49,899 nt of DNA from a virus, in IMG/VR virus record IMGVR_UViG_3300031774_000028, positions 1-49,899 of that record; one strand, given 5' to 3'. The stretch's first letter is position 1. Each line of letters starts with the position of its first letter. The position numbers and the translations under genes were made by a program. Of this stretch, positions 27,773-43,571 are shown piece by piece. Below the pieces are notes generated by a model, which worked only from the letters and a program-made list of their open reading frames with translations, searched no databases and was not told where the DNA came from.

Positions 27773-27846
27773 GGTCCTATAGCTCAATTGGATAGAGCAA
27801 CAGCCTTCTAAGCTGTAGGTTCAAGGTTCAAGTCCTTGTGGGATCA
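27773..27846 (+). tRNA. tRNA-Arg (anticodon TCT)
   Basis: The acceptor arms GGTCCTA and TGGGATC pair with two G-T pairs. The D arm is GCTC/GAGC, the anticodon stem ACAGC/GCTGT with loop CTTCTAA (TCT), and the T arm CAAGG-TTCAAGT-CCTTG; discriminator A. CCA is not encoded. It reads AGA, a frequent codon in this AT-rich genome. Confidence 0.93.
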
Positions 27847-27851
27847 CTGTT

Positions 27852-27940
27852 GGCCGGATGATGAAATTGGTAGACATGAAGGACTTAAAATCCTTTGGAC
27901 AGCAATGTCCGTGTGGGTTCAAATCCCACTCCGGCTACCA
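27852..27940 (+). tRNA. tRNA-Leu (anticodon TAA)
   Basis: This type II tRNA has a long variable arm (TGGACAGCAATGTCCGT). The acceptor is GGCCGGA/TCCGGCT with a G-T first pair, the D arm ATG/CAT, the anticodon stem AAGGA/TCCTT with loop CTTAAAA, and the T arm GTGGG/CCCAC. CCA is encoded and ends exactly where the next tRNA begins. It reads TTA. Confidence 0.92.
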
Positions 27941-28014
27941 GCACTCTTAGCTCAGTTGGTTAGAGCAATTCACTCATAATGAAAAGGTCACAGGTTCAAG
28001 TCCTGTAGGGTGCA
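27941..28014 (+). tRNA. tRNA with CAT anticodon (Met or Ile2)
   Basis: The acceptor is GCACTCT/AGGGTGC, the D arm GCTC/GAGC, the anticodon loop CTCATAA (CAT) with a stem that has one A-A mismatch at its outer end, and the T arm ACAGG/CCTGT. The first acceptor pair G-C excludes the usual initiator mismatch. Whether it is elongator Met or Ile with lysidine needs comparison of identity bases. Confidence 0.88.
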
Positions 28015-28055
28015 CCTTTATAAATCTAAAAAATTAAAAAATTCATGTAATAATT

Positions 28056-37265: not shown

Positions 37266-37664
37266 ATGAAAAAACCAAAAAAATGGTGGATACCAGGTTC
37301 CGTACCTTCCAGTAAAAATGGAAGAAGATGGACGGGTAAATACTTTATAGCTAGTAAGACAGTAGTTAACTATAGAAAGCTTACTAAAGAATACTATGAA
37401 AAGTATGCTGAAGAGTTTAAAGCAGAATTATCTAAATGTACTTTGCCGGCTAAGATATCTTTTACATTTGTAAGGGGTACCAAACATAAATTTGATTACA
37501 TCAATCCTGCACAAACAGTTCAAGATGATATGGTTAAAGCGGGTTGGATTGAGGATGATAATGCAGAGTTTATTCTTCCTGTATTTATTCAATATACATA
37601 TGATAAACAGAATCCTGGAGTATGGATAGAAATATTAACTGATGAATGTAATAAAGAAAAGTGA
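37266..37664 (+). CDS. RusA-like Holliday junction resolvase
   Basis: This is a 132-residue protein. The N-terminal strand part (WWIPGSVPSSKNGRRWTGKY) matches the RusA 'PGxPxSxN' pattern, and the core KFDYINPAQTVQDDMVKAGW followed by IEDDNAEF holds the conserved Asp residues (D-x-x-N ... D-D ... D-D). These bind metal and cut four-way junctions. It would resolve recombination intermediates before packaging. It lies 1 bp after the primase, overlaps the following gene by 23 bp, and belongs to the same transcript. Confidence 0.78.
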   Translation: MKKPKKWWIPGSVPSSKNGRRWTGKYFIASKTVVNYRKLTKEYYEKYAEEFKAELSKCTLPAKISFTFVRGTKHKFDYINPAQTVQDDMVKAGWIEDDNAEFILPVFIQYTYDKQNPGVWIEILTDECNKEK

Positions 37665-37932
37665 TTTCTTTAATATTTTAAGATTACTTAATGGCCTACC
37701 TGTTGATTTTGATTTAGGAATGCATTGTTATAATAGTTTAGAGTTACAAGATAAATATATAACTGATAAGCTATTTGCTAAAGCTTTGCATTATGATGCA
37801 AGAAAATTGTTTTTGAAAAGTAGAAACATTAAATATTCTTTAGGTTCTCTTACAATAAAATGTATACTTATTGATATTGGTGGTACATATAATGAAGAAA
37901 CTTATAAAAAAATATTAGATAAAATTATATAG
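37642..37932 (+). CDS. Hypothetical protein
   Basis: This 96-residue protein begins MNVIKKSDFFNILRLLNGLP and contains HCYNSLELQDKYITDKLFAK, then a beta-like end (LTIKCILIDIGGTYNEETYK). It overlaps the end of the RusA-like gene by 23 bp and ends two bases before the VWA-peptidase gene. It may be coupled to both. No motif is recognised. Confidence 0.45.
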   Translation: MNVIKKSDFFNILRLLNGLPVDFDLGMHCYNSLELQDKYITDKLFAKALHYDARKLFLKSRNIKYSLGSLTIKCILIDIGGTYNEETYKKILDKII

Positions 37933-37934
37933 AT

Positions 37935-39098
37935 ATGATGAACATACAAGATATAGTTGCACGGACAACTAAAAGTTTAATATTTGAAGAGCCCTTTTAC
38001 GGGCTTTTTTTAATTGGTATAAATAAACAATACAGTGATAAAATACCTACAGCAGGTGTTAGTAAACACGGTATTGGCATGCAGTTAACAATCAATCCTG
38101 ATTTTTACTTAAACTTAAGTGAAGATCATAGGTATGGTTTGGTAAAGCATGAGCTATTACACATTGCATTTGGGCACTTAGTAATGAGAGATCTATATTC
38201 TAATCATAAGTTATTTAACATAGCTGCTGATTTAGAGATCAACCAGTACATACTGGAAAGTAAATTACCTGAAGGTGGTTTATTACTCTCAAGTTTTCCT
38301 GAATTAAATCTTCCTACTAAAGCAGGAACAAAAGAATATTATAAACTTTTGGAACAAGCGCAGCAAGATGGGAGTTCTCCTTCATTAGATAATCTAATGG
38401 ATGAAATGAATGGTGAATCACAATATTGTCATGGTACATGGAATGAATTTGATGATTTATCTGAAGCAGATAAAAAGCTTGTACAAAAACAGGTTGATCA
38501 TCAGCTTAAGGAAGCAACACAAGAAACTCTTAAAAAGCAAGGTAGTGTGCCAGGAGAGTTAGCAGAACTAATTCACAAGTTAATGCATGTTGAACCTGCA
38601 AAGTTTAATTGGAAAGCTTACTTAAGAAGGTTTGTTGGTAATTCAAGTATAGTTTACACTAGAAAAATGAGACGTAAGTATAATAAACGTTATTCTGAGA
38701 ATCCAGGTTTAAAGATAAAGTTTAAGAATCACATACTTGTTGGTGTTGATACATCAGGATCTGTAAATACAGAAGAACTAAAAGAATTCTTCTCTGAGTT
38801 AGCACATATGCATAAAACTGGTCATAAGATTACAGTTGCACAGTGTGATACACAGCTTAAAAGTGTAAAAGAATTCAATCCTAAAAAAGATTGGGAAATA
38901 CATGGTCGTGGTGGAACAAGCTTCCAACCAGTAATTGATCACTATAATGAAAAGAAAGGAGTTTATACAGCTCTTATATATTTAACAGACGGTGAAGCAT
39001 ATTCTCCTGATGACTGTCCAAAAAATACCCTATGGGTACATAGCAGTATATCAGAGATAAATGATGAATTACCAGGACAAAAGATAAAACTAAATTAA
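37935..39098 (+). CDS. VWA-domain metallopeptidase-like protein (DUF2201-like)
   Basis: This is a 387-residue protein. A zinc-peptidase-like site, HELLHIAFGH, at residues 71-80 (HExxH with a further His) is followed by a helical, acidic middle, and a VWA domain starts at about 265 with the MIDAS motif VGVDTSGSVNTEEL (DxSxS) and later YLTDGEA (about 350). This two-part build is known from the DUF2201 proteins (putative metallopeptidase plus VWA-like) encoded with MoxR AAA+ ATPases. The next gene is exactly such an ATPase, 15 bp away. The pair probably acts as a chaperone or peptidase on some protein complex. M1 or M2 may be the start. Confidence 0.82.
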   Translation: MMNIQDIVARTTKSLIFEEPFYGLFLIGINKQYSDKIPTAGVSKHGIGMQLTINPDFYLNLSEDHRYGLVKHELLHIAFGHLVMRDLYSNHKLFNIAADLEINQYILESKLPEGGLLLSSFPELNLPTKAGTKEYYKLLEQAQQDGSSPSLDNLMDEMNGESQYCHGTWNEFDDLSEADKKLVQKQVDHQLKEATQETLKKQGSVPGELAELIHKLMHVEPAKFNWKAYLRRFVGNSSIVYTRKMRRKYNKRYSENPGLKIKFKNHILVGVDTSGSVNTEELKEFFSELAHMHKTGHKITVAQCDTQLKSVKEFNPKKDWEIHGRGGTSFQPVIDHYNEKKGVYTALIYLTDGEAYSPDDCPKNTLWVHSSISEINDELPGQKIKLN

Positions 39099-39113
39099 AT
39101 TAAAAAAGTAAAA

Positions 39114-40382
39114 ATGGGTCAAGTAAATTTAAATGCTACAGAACTAAAAGGATTTGTAAACCACATAATCACAAACAACAGATTCTTACAAAAAGAAGGT
39201 AAGCAATCTGTATCTGTTGAGGTTGTTGGTGAATCAGGTATTGGTAAAACGTCAACCATTGTTGAACTAGCTAAAGAGAATGATTTAAACTTTGTTAAGT
39301 TAAACTTAGCACAGATAGAAGAGCTAGGTGACTTAGTAGGTTTCCCAGTTAGACAATTCCAAATGTATAAAGAGACAAAAGTTTCAGAAAATAAAAATGA
39401 CATATCTTATACTGCTGCACAAAGAGCTGCTGCATCATCATCTCTGGCAAAGATGCCTCAAGCAAAAACCAAAAAAGTTGGTTTATGGGTTGATGAACTT
39501 GCTGTACAAGAGTATCTAAAAAATGGATACAAAATGACTGGTAAGAACAGAATGTCTTATTGTCCACCAGAGTGGATTGCTGATAAAAAATCAGGTGGTA
39601 TCTTATTACTAGATGACTGGAACCGTGCTGATGTACGTTTTATTCAAGCTTGTATGGAATTGATTGACAGACAGTCTTATATTTCATGGACACTACCACA
39701 GGATTGGCATATTATATTAACAGCTAACCCGGATAACGGAGATTATATGGTTAACAGTGTAGATAGTGCACAGAAGACTAGATATGTAACCGCAAATCTT
39801 AAGTTTGATGTTAATGTATGGGCTCAATGGGCAGAAGAAGCAGGTGTAGATTCTAGATGTATTAACTTTTTGTTATTGAATCCTGAGTTAGTAACTCAAG
39901 AAACAAATGCAAGATCTATTACTACATTCTTTAATGCTATATCAAGTTTTGATAATTTTGAAGATAACCTCAGCATGATTCAAATGATTGGTGAGGGTAG
40001 TGTAGGTGATGCTTTTGCATCAATGTTCACAACCTTCATTAATAATAAACTTGATAAGCTTGTAACACCAAAAGATTTGTTGACACATGATAATCAGCAA
40101 TATATTTTAGGTGAACTTAGAAGTTGTATTGGTAAGGATGATAATTACCGTGCTGATATAGCATCTACATTAGCTACACGTTTAGCAAATTATGCTGTTG
40201 TGTATTCTAAAGAAAATACCGTAAGTCAAAAGAATACAGATAGACTAAAGACACTATGTACTGAAGACTATTTTACTAATGACTTAAAATATTTGATTGT
40301 AAGATCAATATTTAGTGGTAATAAACAAAAGTTCAATAAATTAATGATGATCCCTGAGATTGTTAAAATGACAATGAAATAA
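39114..40382 (+). CDS. MoxR-type AAA+ ATPase
   Basis: This is a 422-residue protein. Walker A is at residues 38-46 (GESGIGKTS), with NLAQIEELGDLVGFP just after, and Walker B at about 160 (GGILLLDDWNRADV). Sensor 1 is at about 201 (ILTANPDNGDYMV) and an Arg-finger region at DSAQKTRYVTANL. The order and the 'DDWNRA' box fit MoxR/AAA_5 ATPases, which remodel proteins together with VWA-domain partners. The preceding gene encodes the VWA partner; two paralogous unknown proteins follow with overlaps or 1-bp gaps. The TTAAAAAAGTAAAA leader suggests strong translation. Its substrate is unknown. Confidence 0.83.
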   Translation: MGQVNLNATELKGFVNHIITNNRFLQKEGKQSVSVEVVGESGIGKTSTIVELAKENDLNFVKLNLAQIEELGDLVGFPVRQFQMYKETKVSENKNDISYTAAQRAAASSSLAKMPQAKTKKVGLWVDELAVQEYLKNGYKMTGKNRMSYCPPEWIADKKSGGILLLDDWNRADVRFIQACMELIDRQSYISWTLPQDWHIILTANPDNGDYMVNSVDSAQKTRYVTANLKFDVNVWAQWAEEAGVDSRCINFLLLNPELVTQETNARSITTFFNAISSFDNFEDNLSMIQMIGEGSVGDAFASMFTTFINNKLDKLVTPKDLLTHDNQQYILGELRSCIGKDDNYRADIASTLATRLANYAVVYSKENTVSQKNTDRLKTLCTEDYFTNDLKYLIVRSIFSGNKQKFNKLMMIPEIVKMTMK

Positions 40383-40383
40383 A

Positions 40384-41421
40384 ATGGCAAATAAATCAGT
40401 ATATCAAGATTTTGATACTGATGCTTTAAATTACTTTGCATTGGAGAGTGACACCGTTTATGGTGTCCTCTCTAATACAGACTGTAATAAAGTATTATGT
40501 ACTCAAGATCAAACAACATATGAAAAAATACACAGTATATTAACGGTCCCCACAGAAGATGACCAAACTTTTAGAACCAAAAAGAAAGCTTTTATACTAC
40601 CTAAGTGTAATGTATCACAAGATAGATTAAAGGCTGCTCTTAAAGAGCACGGTATAACTGTTACAAATGATTATGAATTAGCAGATCTTATAATTGGGCA
40701 TGAGGATATTTCTACTCATACATTACAGAATGCGGAAAATATCCCGTCTACTATAATGATGAATAAGATATGGAATTATGAAACTACAATGGGAGATGCA
40801 ACAAAAACAGGTGTCCTAAAAAAAGTCTCAGATTCTGGTTTAGAATGTATTATTACACCTAAGATTACAGACAATGTAAGATATTATGATATAGATATAA
40901 ATGATAGTCTATATGATACCTGGATGCTTACTGGTATGGCTATAAACTTGGCTCATATAATTGATACCACACATGTTAGTGTTATTGATCCTGAGACTGT
41001 GTTACATGCATCTGCTACTAAAATGACTCTTGATGAAGGTCTGTTTAATGATTTAAAAGCGCAATTAAAGGCTTATGGTGATGATAAGGCCTTAGCTCTT
41101 AAAATTGTTCCTACTATAGATTATAAAAAAAATTATCATTTATTATGGCAATTTTCACAAGACTGTAGTAGTATAACATATGCAGATAACAGAGATAAAG
41201 ATCTACAGTATTGGTTAAAAGAATCTGGATTTCTTGATTTTGAAAGAAAGAGTGCTCAGGACATGATACTTTGGTTAGAAGAGAGAGAATTGTTATGTAA
41301 AACAAGTTTCAGATATTTAGAACCTATAGTAAGAAAAGAAATAAGCATTCATAACAGGGATCTTTATACTTTTAAAGTAGCTGTAAAAAAAGAATATCAA
41401 AAATATTTAAAAAATGACTAA
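40384..41421 (+). CDS. MoxR-VWA cassette partner protein A (paralog of the next gene)
   Basis: This 345-residue protein is not recognised as a known family. It starts one base after the MoxR stop. Residues 68-115 (FILPKCNVSQDRLKAALKEH ... ADLIIG) and 235-255 (ALALKIVPTIDYKKNYHLL) align without gaps with residues 72-117 and 265-288 of the next protein, so the two are paralogs. The first block looks like a small alpha/beta unit, and the second like a helical (HEAT-like) repeat. There are no catalytic motifs. Context suggests an adaptor or substrate of the MoxR-VWA pair. The end overlaps the next gene by 8 bp. Confidence 0.6.
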   Translation: MANKSVYQDFDTDALNYFALESDTVYGVLSNTDCNKVLCTQDQTTYEKIHSILTVPTEDDQTFRTKKKAFILPKCNVSQDRLKAALKEHGITVTNDYELADLIIGHEDISTHTLQNAENIPSTIMMNKIWNYETTMGDATKTGVLKKVSDSGLECIITPKITDNVRYYDIDINDSLYDTWMLTGMAINLAHIIDTTHVSVIDPETVLHASATKMTLDEGLFNDLKAQLKAYGDDKALALKIVPTIDYKKNYHLLWQFSQDCSSITYADNRDKDLQYWLKESGFLDFERKSAQDMILWLEERELLCKTSFRYLEPIVRKEISIHNRDLYTFKVAVKKEYQKYLKND

Positions 41422-42580
41422 AAAAATATATAATTTTAATTTAAAGAGAGATGATGTTACAGTCAACAAAAACGTTGAACTAACATCTGGAGCATTTGAT
41501 ATAGAACTAACAGATGAACTGTATGTTGGTAGTAGTGATAACTATCATTTATCAGGTGATGATCTTGCAAATTTTGGGTTACATAACATAGTTACTGGTA
41601 AACAGCAACCATCTGTTATTAGCTTACAAGATGTAAAGATTTATAGATATCCTAAATTAAACTTACCAAGACAAAAGTTTGATTTGTTAAAGGAAAGGTT
41701 TGATTGTAAAATTACTAGGAATAGTGATAAGGCAGACATACATGTAGTGTCATATAAGTTTTTAGAATCTTTATTCACATACAATTGGTATAGTAATAAA
41801 TTTTTAGATTACAGAGACTTCGTTAGAGTTTGTATTATAGCAAAAGAGAAAGGTATGTTTACTGATGGAGCTCTTAATCAGCTTAGAGAAAAACTATCTG
41901 GAATGGATCAAAACTCTATTGTTGCTTTTAATCAACACTACTATAATAGTAGTAATAATGTTCAGTTATGGAGAGACCAATTTCTTAAGATTACAGAACC
42001 TTTTCATGAAGCAGCAAATCTAGGATCTAGAGTAGTTATGATTGAAAAAGGTAAAGTTAAAGATTATGATAGAGTTGTTAATTCTGTAGCTACTGTTGTA
42101 TTTGATACTGCAATAACTGAAATAATTGATGAAGATTTAGCAATTATTGAAGATGATCAATACGGTACCATAGAACAGATGATTACAAGTAATGATATAG
42201 AAAATAGAACATTGGCTCTTGAAATGCTAGCTAATTCTAATATAGAAAAATCATTTAATGTAGTATCTAGTTTGTATTGGTGGCACTATGATTGGATGAA
42301 AGCTACTAATAATTGGAATACAGTAAATGTAAAAGCTATGAGGTCACGGTTAAAATCATATGAAGGTGGTCATGATACTAATAATGTTTATTCTTATAAT
42401 AGATACATCATGGCTTTGACAGAAGATAGAAAATTAACTAAATTTGCTGTTGACAATACCAGATCTTTATTTCTCAATAAATGCTTAAATGCAATGGTAG
42501 GACCAGGAGCTGAAGTATTTAAAGTTGATTTAGAACATCTTGTATTAAAGGAAAAATATAATAACTCAATTAATGAATAG
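41414..42580 (+). CDS. MoxR-VWA cassette partner protein B (paralog of previous gene)
   Basis: This 388-residue protein contains the shared blocks at 72-117 (YRYPKLNLPRQKFDLLKERF ... KADIHVV) and 265-288 (TLALEMLANSNIEKSFNVV, preceded by MITSNDIEN). The second block resembles a HEAT-like helix pair often seen in Bacteroidetes phage proteins (M...D.EN..LA.E.L). Between them is a helical region (FVRVCIIAKEKGMFTDGALN). It overlaps the upstream gene by 8 bp and the next nuclease gene by 8 bp, so all are in one chain. The role is unknown; tandem duplication next to MoxR suggests a hetero-complex. Confidence 0.6.
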   Translation: MTKKIYNFNLKRDDVTVNKNVELTSGAFDIELTDELYVGSSDNYHLSGDDLANFGLHNIVTGKQQPSVISLQDVKIYRYPKLNLPRQKFDLLKERFDCKITRNSDKADIHVVSYKFLESLFTYNWYSNKFLDYRDFVRVCIIAKEKGMFTDGALNQLREKLSGMDQNSIVAFNQHYYNSSNNVQLWRDQFLKITEPFHEAANLGSRVVMIEKGKVKDYDRVVNSVATVVFDTAITEIIDEDLAIIEDDQYGTIEQMITSNDIENRTLALEMLANSNIEKSFNVVSSLYWWHYDWMKATNNWNTVNVKAMRSRLKSYEGGHDTNNVYSYNRYIMALTEDRKLTKFAVDNTRSLFLNKCLNAMVGPGAEVFKVDLEHLVLKEKYNNSINE

Positions 42581-43571
42581 AAACATTGAAAAAGAAGAGC
42601 AGTTTTACTCAAATGATAAATTTAAGTTTAGCTACTCTTCTTTAAATAAACTTTTATTTTCACCATCCTTATTTTATAAGGACTATATTTTAAATGACCG
42701 TGAGGTTAGAACAGATAAACATTTAGTAGAAGGCAAGCTTGTACATTGTTTGGTGTTTGAACCTGAAAACGTTGAGAACAAGTTTAGTATTGTACCTGGT
42801 AAAGCACCATCAGATAGTGTTAGAAAGGTTTTAAAGAACATGTCTTTATATACTGATGCAGAAAAGTTATTTGATGTCCCATCTGAAATAGTATTGGATT
42901 CACTCAAAGAAATGAATTTGTATCAGTCTCTAAAAACAGATGAGCAACGTATTGTTAAGATTATAAAAGATGAGTTTGAACCTTATTGGGAATTCTTATC
43001 TAACAAAAACGTTGATGTTGTAGATCAAGATACTTTATTAAAGTGTACAGAGCAGGCAGAGTTTATTAAAAGTAACAGTGATGTTATGGCAATATTTGAA
43101 GAAGTTTCAACAGACTTTGATTTAGACCCAATAGAAACTCATGCAGAAAAATATCTGAGTTGTACATTATCTAAAATGCCTTTTGGTTTGCATGGTTACA
43201 TAGATTACTATAAAGTTAATCATGATGAGAAGCTTATAACTATATGTGATCTTAAAACTACAGGTAAAACAATAGCTGACTTTAATGATACAGTAGAGTT
43301 TTATAACTACTGGCTTCAAGCTGCTATTTATTGTAAACTTGTTTATGAAGATATAAGTAAATCAATTGATAATGTAGATGAGTATAAGATTGAGTTTAAG
43401 TTTGTTGTTATAGATAAATATAACCAAGTTTATACTTTTGAAGTTACAGATGCTACACTTAATAAATGGGCGCAAGCTTTTAGTAATGTAATTAAGGCTG
43501 CAGAATACCATTATAATGAAAGAAATTATAGCTTACCTTATAATTTCTTAATTGAAAAAGTTAGATTATAG
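42573..43571 (+). CDS. PD-(D/E)XK exonuclease (RecB/ExoVIII-like)
   Basis: This is a 332-residue protein. The nuclease core is PFGLHGYIDYYKVNHDEKLI, TICDLKTTGKTIADF (about 205-235): G-x-x-D ... D-x-K-T, followed by the conserved helix YNYWLQAAIYCKLVYE. The N-terminal half has FSYSSLNKLLFSPSLFYKDY and EGKLVHCLVFEP, the S-x-l ... G-x-l-x-H pattern of this nuclease class (YqaJ/ExoVIII/AddB-like). It probably resects DNA ends for the Sak4-like annealing protein. It starts inside the end of the paralog gene by 8 bp. It is the second nuclease of this class in the window (the other at 17700). Confidence 0.78.
   Translation: MNRNIEKEEQFYSNDKFKFSYSSLNKLLFSPSLFYKDYILNDREVRTDKHLVEGKLVHCLVFEPENVENKFSIVPGKAPSDSVRKVLKNMSLYTDAEKLFDVPSEIVLDSLKEMNLYQSLKTDEQRIVKIIKDEFEPYWEFLSNKNVDVVDQDTLLKCTEQAEFIKSNSDVMAIFEEVSTDFDLDPIETHAEKYLSCTLSKMPFGLHGYIDYYKVNHDEKLITICDLKTTGKTIADFNDTVEFYNYWLQAAIYCKLVYEDISKSIDNVDEYKIEFKFVVIDKYNQVYTFEVTDATLNKWAQAFSNVIKAAEYHYNERNYSLPYNFLIEKVRL

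Follow-up and report, generated by a model that had tools for sequence, protein, structure and literature searches.

What does a phage MoxR-type AAA+ ATPase act on when it is encoded beside a metallopeptidase–VWA protein, and which proteins act with it? Such metallopeptidase-type MoxR–VWA pairs are core in N4-like phages and present in jumbo phages and cyanophages, and no function has been established for them in any tailed phage in the literature examined. We addressed this question in the 49.9-kb virus record IMGVR_UViG_3300031774_000028 (49,899 nt; the whole stretch analysed, hereafter the window), which is from a marine crAss-like phage and carries at positions 37935–42580 a cassette of four genes for a DUF2201 metallopeptidase–VWA protein, a MoxR-type AAA+ ATPase and two further proteins, P3 and P4. 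An initial annotation had taken P3 and P4 for two dedicated partners of the MoxR–VWA pair. They are indeed unrecognised proteins that travel with the pair, but sequence and model comparisons make them distant paralogues of one family, and of the two only P3 is part of the minimal unit: judged from sequence, VWA–MoxR–P3 is the core and P4 is an add-on specific to the lineage of the window.

Composition of the cassette

The four genes and the signature motifs of the first two are as follows.

37935..39098, plus strand: VWA protein (387 aa; phrog_1314), a DUF2201 HExxH metallopeptidase with a VWA domain and an intact metal ion-dependent adhesion site (MIDAS), assigned by Pfam, PHROG and motifs
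38148..38177, plus strand: HELLHIAFGH zinc-protease motif, VWA residues 72–81, from translation and conservation
38748..38762, plus strand: MIDAS motif DTSGS, VWA residues 272–276, with T328 and D352 as further ligands
39114..40382, plus strand: MoxR-type AAA+ ATPase (422 aa; phrog_1297), assigned by PHROG and midasin structures
39228..39254, plus strand: Walker A motif GESGIGKTS, MoxR residues 39–47, from an alignment of 33 relatives
39600..39617, plus strand: Walker B motif ILLLDD, MoxR residues 163–168, with Asp replacing the usual catalytic Glu
40384..41421, plus strand: P3 (345 aa), third core component, with a predicted BRCT-like domain and helical C-terminal array
41414..42580, plus strand: P4 (388 aa), the fast-evolving putative paralogue of P3 and lineage-specific add-on

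The VWA–MoxR and MoxR–P3 gaps are 15 and 1 bp, and P3 and P4 overlap by 8 bp. Translation, Pfam and alignments confirmed the four open reading frames, their spacing and both motifs of the VWA protein as initially annotated. This protein exceeded the Pfam cut-offs for DUF2201_N (E = 1.9e-18) as well as DUF2201 (E = 6.6e-16) and matched phrog_1314 (1.4e-64), with the HExxH-bearing DUF2201_N domain and the MIDAS-bearing DUF2201 VWA domain in one chain. HELLHIAFGH, D272-T-S-G-S276, T328 and D352 were essentially invariant among 46 non-redundant relatives, and HExxH was kept in homologues from N4-like phages, cyanophages and Vibrio, Thermus and Moorella phages. Because the VWA domain match extends to residue 375 of 387, there is no variable effector domain C-terminal to it. 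Relatives of the protein were present in 410 phage records. The PHROG name of phrog_1314, ‘HNH endonuclease’, was rejected in favour of DUF2201; the members checked were DUF2201 metallopeptidase–VWA proteins, and many GenBank phage records carry the endonuclease label.

The ATPase matched phrog_1297 (4.2e-35), had midasin AAA+ modules as its nearest solved structures in the PDB, and aligned with the MoxR proteins of phages S-TIM5, LIT1 and Shigella phage B2; its MoxR/AAA_5/midasin affinity is thus given by PHROG and PDB, the Pfam AAA_5 match itself being below the cut-off. Walker A, Walker B, sensor-1 N205, R223 and R267 were invariant among 33 relatives, with a mean column identity of 87%. 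The description of this protein as a complete MoxR ATPase stood in that all AAA+ motifs are present, but the catalytic Glu of Walker B is replaced by Asp throughout the subfamily (LLLDDWNRAD), whereas Glu is present in the other phage MoxR proteins that were compared.

Two of the most conserved motifs were found interrupted in some relatives. An insertion of about 1.1 kb lies exactly within the HExxH codons of the VWA gene in L104 (L104:7547-8660; also in L106 and L108) and contains a LAGLIDADG-like open reading frame; its flanks can be joined in frame as HEL|LHIAFGH, with a T before the insert and a G at its end, as in group I introns. Another of about 1.1 kb, with a GIY-YIG-like open reading frame, lies just past the MoxR Walker B in L248 (L248:3447-4530). 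The encoded proteins are homing-endonuclease-like and the sequence features of both insertions group-I-intron-like, while an Rfam search of L104 and L248 gave no match for the insertions at E<0.1.

Conservation of the cassette among relatives

We collected 260 loci comprising the window, IMG/VR loci and one GTDB contig, taking the best 80 loci per search and reaching distant relatives by walking along P3. The loci overlap between searches and represent fewer independent phages; distances were calculated from 67 distinct phages in which all 14 module genes are present. Co-occurrence of the four genes, set beforehand as the check on which the proposal could fail, was found within the lineage, with the order VWA–MoxR–P3–P4 kept in 223 of the 260 loci, an estimate that is biased upward because the P3 walk cannot find MoxR–VWA pairs of this subfamily without P3. 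The remaining loci were mostly cut by contig ends or had genes split by insertions or frameshifts. The VWA and MoxR genes were adjacent and co-inherited, with inserts at 36 VWA–MoxR and 9 MoxR–P3 junctions, and the spacing of P3 and P4 was at most 10 bp in all 241 cases. A P3 search of the GTDB genomes gave one locus, the 114.7-kb contig L249 (WLWP01000004.1) in a Pseudomonadales metagenome-assembled genome, which is probably a phage contig binned with a bacterium. Its replication operon is nearly identical to that of the window (86–100% for all genes except g110).

Walking outward along P3 led to four loci (L278–L281) of another, deeply diverged crAss-like lineage, whose TerL was assigned to phrog_6681 on the L281 contig (E = 2.4e-135). 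VWA, MoxR and P3 are contiguous there, as co-occurrence would have it, and 62–64%, 65–67% and 36–38% identical to those of the window's lineage, but P4 was not found in these loci by profile search. The other genes are far more distant, with identities of 26% for TerL, 20% for the portal, 29–32% for the primase and 25–34% for the DnaB-like helicase; Sak4 and Pol had no match in this lineage, in which some contigs do not reach every gene. The genes flanking the cassette also differ, and in L279 and L281 the recombination exonuclease gene after P3 is replaced at the same place by one of a different family (phrog_107, against the RecE-like phrog_412 of the window).

Since the cassette genes are 36–67% identical between the lineages and the other genes 20–34%, although TerL (74–80%) and MoxR (79–80%) diverge at like rates within the window's lineage, the VWA–MoxR–P3 block seems to have been passed whole from one lineage to another, which would argue that P3 works with MoxR–VWA. 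Extreme constraint in place of transfer is less favoured, because P3 identity already falls to 43–47% within the window's lineage. Ten reference crAss-like genomes gave no match for VWA (phrog_1314), MoxR, P3 or P4.

P3 and P4 as distant paralogues

No family above cut-off was found for P3 or P4 in Pfam, PHROG or NCBIfam, tblastn in 50,697 phage records gave no homologue at E<0.1, and their profiles had no accepted match in the ten reference crAss-like genomes and six other phages. One match of the P4 profile, to a frame of Vibrio phage phiKT1024 annotated as a putative chitinase (E = 0.002, 63 positions), was rejected as chance. PADLOC also matched P4 to a ‘homing endonuclease’ model (E = 4e-4), over the last 56 model positions only, and this was rejected for want of other support. 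Weak matches to YqeY (P4 profile, E = 0.03), DUF4240, Ish1 and DNA_alkylation were also seen. Family and profile searches showed no catalytic domain in either protein, and neither had convincing similarity to virion proteins. The initial annotation had named one way in which it could be wrong, namely that the partners prove to be known structural or replication proteins, and no such function was found for P3 or P4.

AlphaFold models of P3 and P4 (mean predicted local distance difference test scores of 88.8 and 90.9) have a common plan of a small N-terminal alpha/beta part, a BRCT-like segment and a mostly helical C-terminal half. In a viral Foldseek library, both models had the same four significant hits and only these, at 10–16% identity: A0A8S5TKB2 and A0A8S5TL70 from Podoviridae sp. 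ctz6O13, A0A8S5QMV2 from CrAss-like virus ctYsL76, and A0A6J5LXR8. An hhalign comparison of P3 with P4, partial with less diverse P3 sequences, became full-length and collinear once more diverse ones were included (E = 1.6e-4 to 3e-3, score 31–40); 30 column shuffles scored no higher than 20.9, and other module proteins no higher than 25. The hhalign probability was low to moderate (10–50%), and for this reason the assignment of P3 and P4 as paralogues needs the hhalign and Foldseek lines together.

The BRCT-like segments are located as follows.

40573..40722, plus strand: P3 BRCT-like segment, residues 64–113, the most conserved part of P3, from weak Pfam matches, conservation and the joint profile
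41621..41779, plus strand: P4 BRCT-like segment, residues 70–122, from Foldseek against the PDB and isoelectric point

The segment was found independently by Foldseek and, weakly, by sequence profile. The top PDB hits of P4 were PARP1 BRCT structures (probability 0.98, E = 0.14, root-mean-square deviation 2.3–2.6 Å over 51–52 columns), and the BRCT-fold match of P3, which was searched in the viral structure library, was weaker. A joint profile of the P3 and P4 segments ranked PARP1 BRCT first (E = 0.077), and sub-threshold Pfam BRCT matches occurred in 15 of 49 P3 members (best 0.017). The segment is basic in P4 (isoelectric point 9.5) and less so in P3 (8.1), both proteins being otherwise acidic. 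A BRCT-like domain followed by a helical array is the predicted architecture of the family.

Evolutionary rates

Across the 67 phages, mean identity was 87% (86.7%) for MoxR, 81% for VWA, 78% for Pol, 63% for P3 and 38.5% for P4. The ratio of nonsynonymous to synonymous substitution rates (dN/dS) in close pairs of the window's clade rose in the same order, from 0.01–0.05 for MoxR and 0.04–0.11 for VWA to 0.11–0.21 for P3 and 0.25–0.31 for P4, and was well below 1 for all four genes in most close pairs; together with the gene order kept across the loci, this marks the cassette as more than a chance assembly. For the three close pairs formed by the window and members of its own clade, the ratio was about 0.05 for MoxR, 0.06–0.11 for VWA, 0.11–0.21 for P3 and 0.25–0.27 for P4. 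In one close pair (L010–L052), the dS of P3 was 0.62 against 0.02–0.10 for P4, VWA and MoxR, and raised P3 dS of this kind suggests exchange of P3 alleles in some close pairs. The partial distance correlation between VWA and P3 was 0.45, the joint highest of 91 gene pairs and equal to that of Sak4 and SSB, and it ranked 1–3 in 73 of 100 half-samples; this is a weak hint, and the only one, of direct contact between P3 and VWA.

Genomic context

The crAss-like nature of the phage is supported by TerL, which matches Crassvirales/crAss-like phages at about 25% identity, by portal and head proteins on the minus strand that match PHROG portal and head families, by a PHROG match of TerL, and by the gene plan. 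The plus strand carries a replication module with a DnaB-like helicase, Sak4, a putative SSB, a primase, a putative RusA, an exonuclease and PolB, in which the SSB and RusA labels rest on position and inspection by eye. The cassette lies within this replication/recombination operon, on the strand opposite to the head genes, and the initial placement of a MoxR–VWA module among replication and recombination genes of a crAss-like phage was thereby borne out. Gene order resembles that of Cellulophaga phage phi14:2, where a RusA gene, a 93-aa gene and the exonuclease are contiguous; in the window the putative RusA is followed by a 96-aa gene, VWA–MoxR–P3–P4 and then the exonuclease:

42573..43571, plus strand: RecE/exonuclease VIII-like nuclease, next gene of the operon (phrog_412, 4.3e-16; PDDEXK_1, 4.9e-07)

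The operon extends in both directions, because the exonuclease gene overlaps P4 by 8 bp and the 96-aa gene ends 2 bp before the VWA start. We regard the exonuclease as context rather than cassette core, since another exonuclease family occupies its slot in the distant lineage. The small gene upstream of VWA (g96; 37642-37932) evolves fast, with dN/dS of 0.21–0.58 in close pairs and about 25–44% identity to most relatives, and the slot of 0.3–1.6 kb between RusA and VWA holds either this gene or other variable genes. An A-rich stretch without an evident Shine-Dalgarno motif precedes most start codons of the operon (window 37600-42580); such leaders are expected for Bacteroidota hosts. Three consecutive tRNA genes (Arg-TCT, Leu-TAA and Met-CAT) lie at 27773-28016, at the start of the replication arm. 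The window probably covers less than half of a genome, given that the contigs of several relatives are 113–117 kb long.

Proposed mechanism and alternatives

The reading that we prefer, while giving it somewhat less than an even chance, is that MoxR and VWA form a remodelling machine for which P3 (and P4) would be adaptors to nucleoprotein complexes during replication or recombination. MoxR would be the AAA+ ring of this ATP-driven protein-remodelling machine, the VWA domain of the DUF2201 protein would use its MIDAS to hold the target, which the HExxH domain of the same protein may then cleave. P3, joined by P4 in the window's lineage, would bring the machine to its target as a dedicated adaptor or scaffold, the helical C-terminal half binding the VWA–MoxR complex and the BRCT-like domain binding DNA or nucleoprotein; the likely targets would be replication and recombination complexes such as stalled replisomes, recombination intermediates or host proteins on phage DNA. 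An adaptor is preferred because P3 is co-inherited across lineages and has no catalytic signature, and because its sequence varies where that of the machine stays constant. A nucleoprotein target is suggested by the BRCT-like segment, by the replication setting of the cassette and by its exonuclease neighbour, a gene that keeps its place shortly after the cassette even when it belongs to another family.

Several points weigh against this reading. Contact of P3 or P4 with VWA or MoxR is something we infer from sequence, and the distance correlations of MoxR with P3 and with P4 are at background. The BRCT match of P3 scores 14.1 bits against a Pfam gathering cut-off of 21.3, P4 has no BRCT match in Pfam, and sequence matches to PARP1 BRCT are at E = 0.08–0.13; BRCT domains also bind phosphopeptides and proteins, so DNA binding is not implied. 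The Walker B Asp of MoxR could make hydrolysis slow or absent, and a place in the replication operon is no proof that the cassette serves replication. A bolder version, which we hold to be doubtful, is that VWA–MoxR–P3 would be a mobile machine of three components that deeply diverged crAss-like phages have swapped as one block. It would be the phage counterpart of bacterial vWA–MoxR ternary systems, its AAA+ unfoldase and attached metalloprotease being guided by a BRCT-plus-helical adaptor to nucleoprotein on replicating phage DNA, and duplication of the adaptor into P4 would have widened the target range.

Phage replication operons often retain gene order without physical interaction, and P3 and P4 might accordingly be unrelated neighbours that happen to share an operon; this is very improbable given that the VWA–MoxR–P3 block is common to a lineage in which the other replication genes are 25–34% identical or undetectable and the flanks differ. 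A host-directed or counter-defence role, in which P3 and P4 would bring MoxR–VWA to host or defence proteins that are then unfolded, cut or inactivated, is unlikely but stays a rival in view of the rapid evolution of P3 and P4. Both change much more quickly than MoxR and VWA by dN/dS and by mean identity, and P3 dS is raised in some close pairs as if P3 alleles were swapped. Nothing specific was found for the counter-defence role raised by the initial annotation, however, and there was no convincing match to PADLOC defence models; neighbours with no sign of a host-directed role are also fast (g96, dN/dS 0.21–0.58; g198), purifying selection still prevails in most pairs, and the core unit is kept across the lineage as sampled by P3 and MoxR, unlike patchy counter-defence genes.

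A chaperone role in virion assembly, with MoxR–VWA–peptidase assembling or processing structural proteins, seems to us quite improbable. Such a role was proposed for jumbo phages with this combination of domains (PMC7824862) and has been partly demonstrated in Acidianus two-tailed virus (ATV), in which p618 interacts with p892 and with virion proteins (PMC4124505), and homologues of N4 gp24/gp25 lie near a second structural module in some N4-like phages (PMC4193335). The cassette, in contrast, is in a replication operon with the head genes on the opposite strand, N4 gp24/gp25 are middle genes (PMC4193335), P3 and P4 have no convincing resemblance to virion proteins, and a dedicated structural substrate is made less likely by the TerL and portal of the two cassette lineages being only 20–26% identical. 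Less probable again is that P3 and P4 are dedicated substrates, assembled, metal-loaded or processed by the pair and acting alone afterwards. MoxR ATPases are thought to be chaperones in the maturation of dedicated protein complexes (PMC3893208), and the close co-inheritance of P3 and the pair is as compatible with a substrate as with an adaptor, but P3 and P4 show no catalytic domain and the fast divergence of P4 at constant MoxR–VWA sequence fits a recognition role better.

Comparison with known systems

The MoxR–VWA pair is already known in phages (PMC7824862, PMC4193335, PMC7650795), so that the initial suggestion of a possibly undescribed system holds for P3 and P4, which match no family, but not for the pair. 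An AAA+ ATPase gene was adjacent to or within a few genes of the VWA relative in 5 of 6 phage loci inspected, the exception being Vibrio phage phiKT1024, where about 45 kb separate the VWA relative from the nearest MoxR-like match. The jumbo phages of group 2.2 likewise have a MoxR ATPase beside a VWA protein that begins with a metallopeptidase domain, a pair for which a role in virion assembly and proteolysis was proposed and no third component described (PMC7824862), whereas the pair of the window is in a replication operon with P3 and P4. In N4 and the Schitoviridae, where gp24/gp25 are core genes of N4-like phages (PMC4193335, PMC7650795), the AAA+ ATPase and DUF2201/VWA genes are adjacent or one gene apart and also lie in the replication region, ahead of the helicase and DNA polymerase; the VWA proteins, however, are mostly 22–28% identical to that of the window and Walker B has Glu. 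Profile searches found no P3 or P4 in N4-like LIT1 and Shigella phage B2.

RavA–ViaA and ATV p618–p892 also combine a MoxR ATPase with a VWA co-chaperone. We know of no peptidase domain in ViaA. The ATV system has none (PMC7824862), unlike the VWA protein of the window, and both systems have other targets than those proposed here (PMC3893208, PMC4124505). The VMAP/iSTAND ternary conflict systems of multicellular bacteria share the combination of MoxR, vWA and a dedicated third protein, and their vWA–MoxR pairs were proposed to restructure the complex formed with that protein (PMC7159879). They differ in that the third protein is another one and the setting is a bacterial conflict island, not a phage replication operon, and their variable effector domain C-terminal to VWA is not seen in the VWA protein of the window. 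P3 and P4 had no significant VMAP-C or inactive STAND match in Pfam, PADLOC or PHROG, libraries in which the presence of VMAP-C models was unverified.

Among solved structures, PARP1 BRCT (2cok, 2le0 and 7scy) comes closest to the BRCT-like segment in both the Foldseek and the sequence-profile comparison; the similarity is weak and limited to about 50 residues, the rest of the architecture not being common to the two. The closest counterparts of P3 and P4 in predicted structure are the uncharacterised proteins A0A8S5TKB2, A0A8S5TL70, A0A8S5QMV2 and A0A6J5LXR8, two of which come from one phage (ctz6O13). In sum, the P3/P4 partner family is new beside the known pair; it would be a further family of adaptors in crAss-like phages from outside the gut and, by travelling with the pair across deeply diverged phages, provides a handle on the target of the pair.

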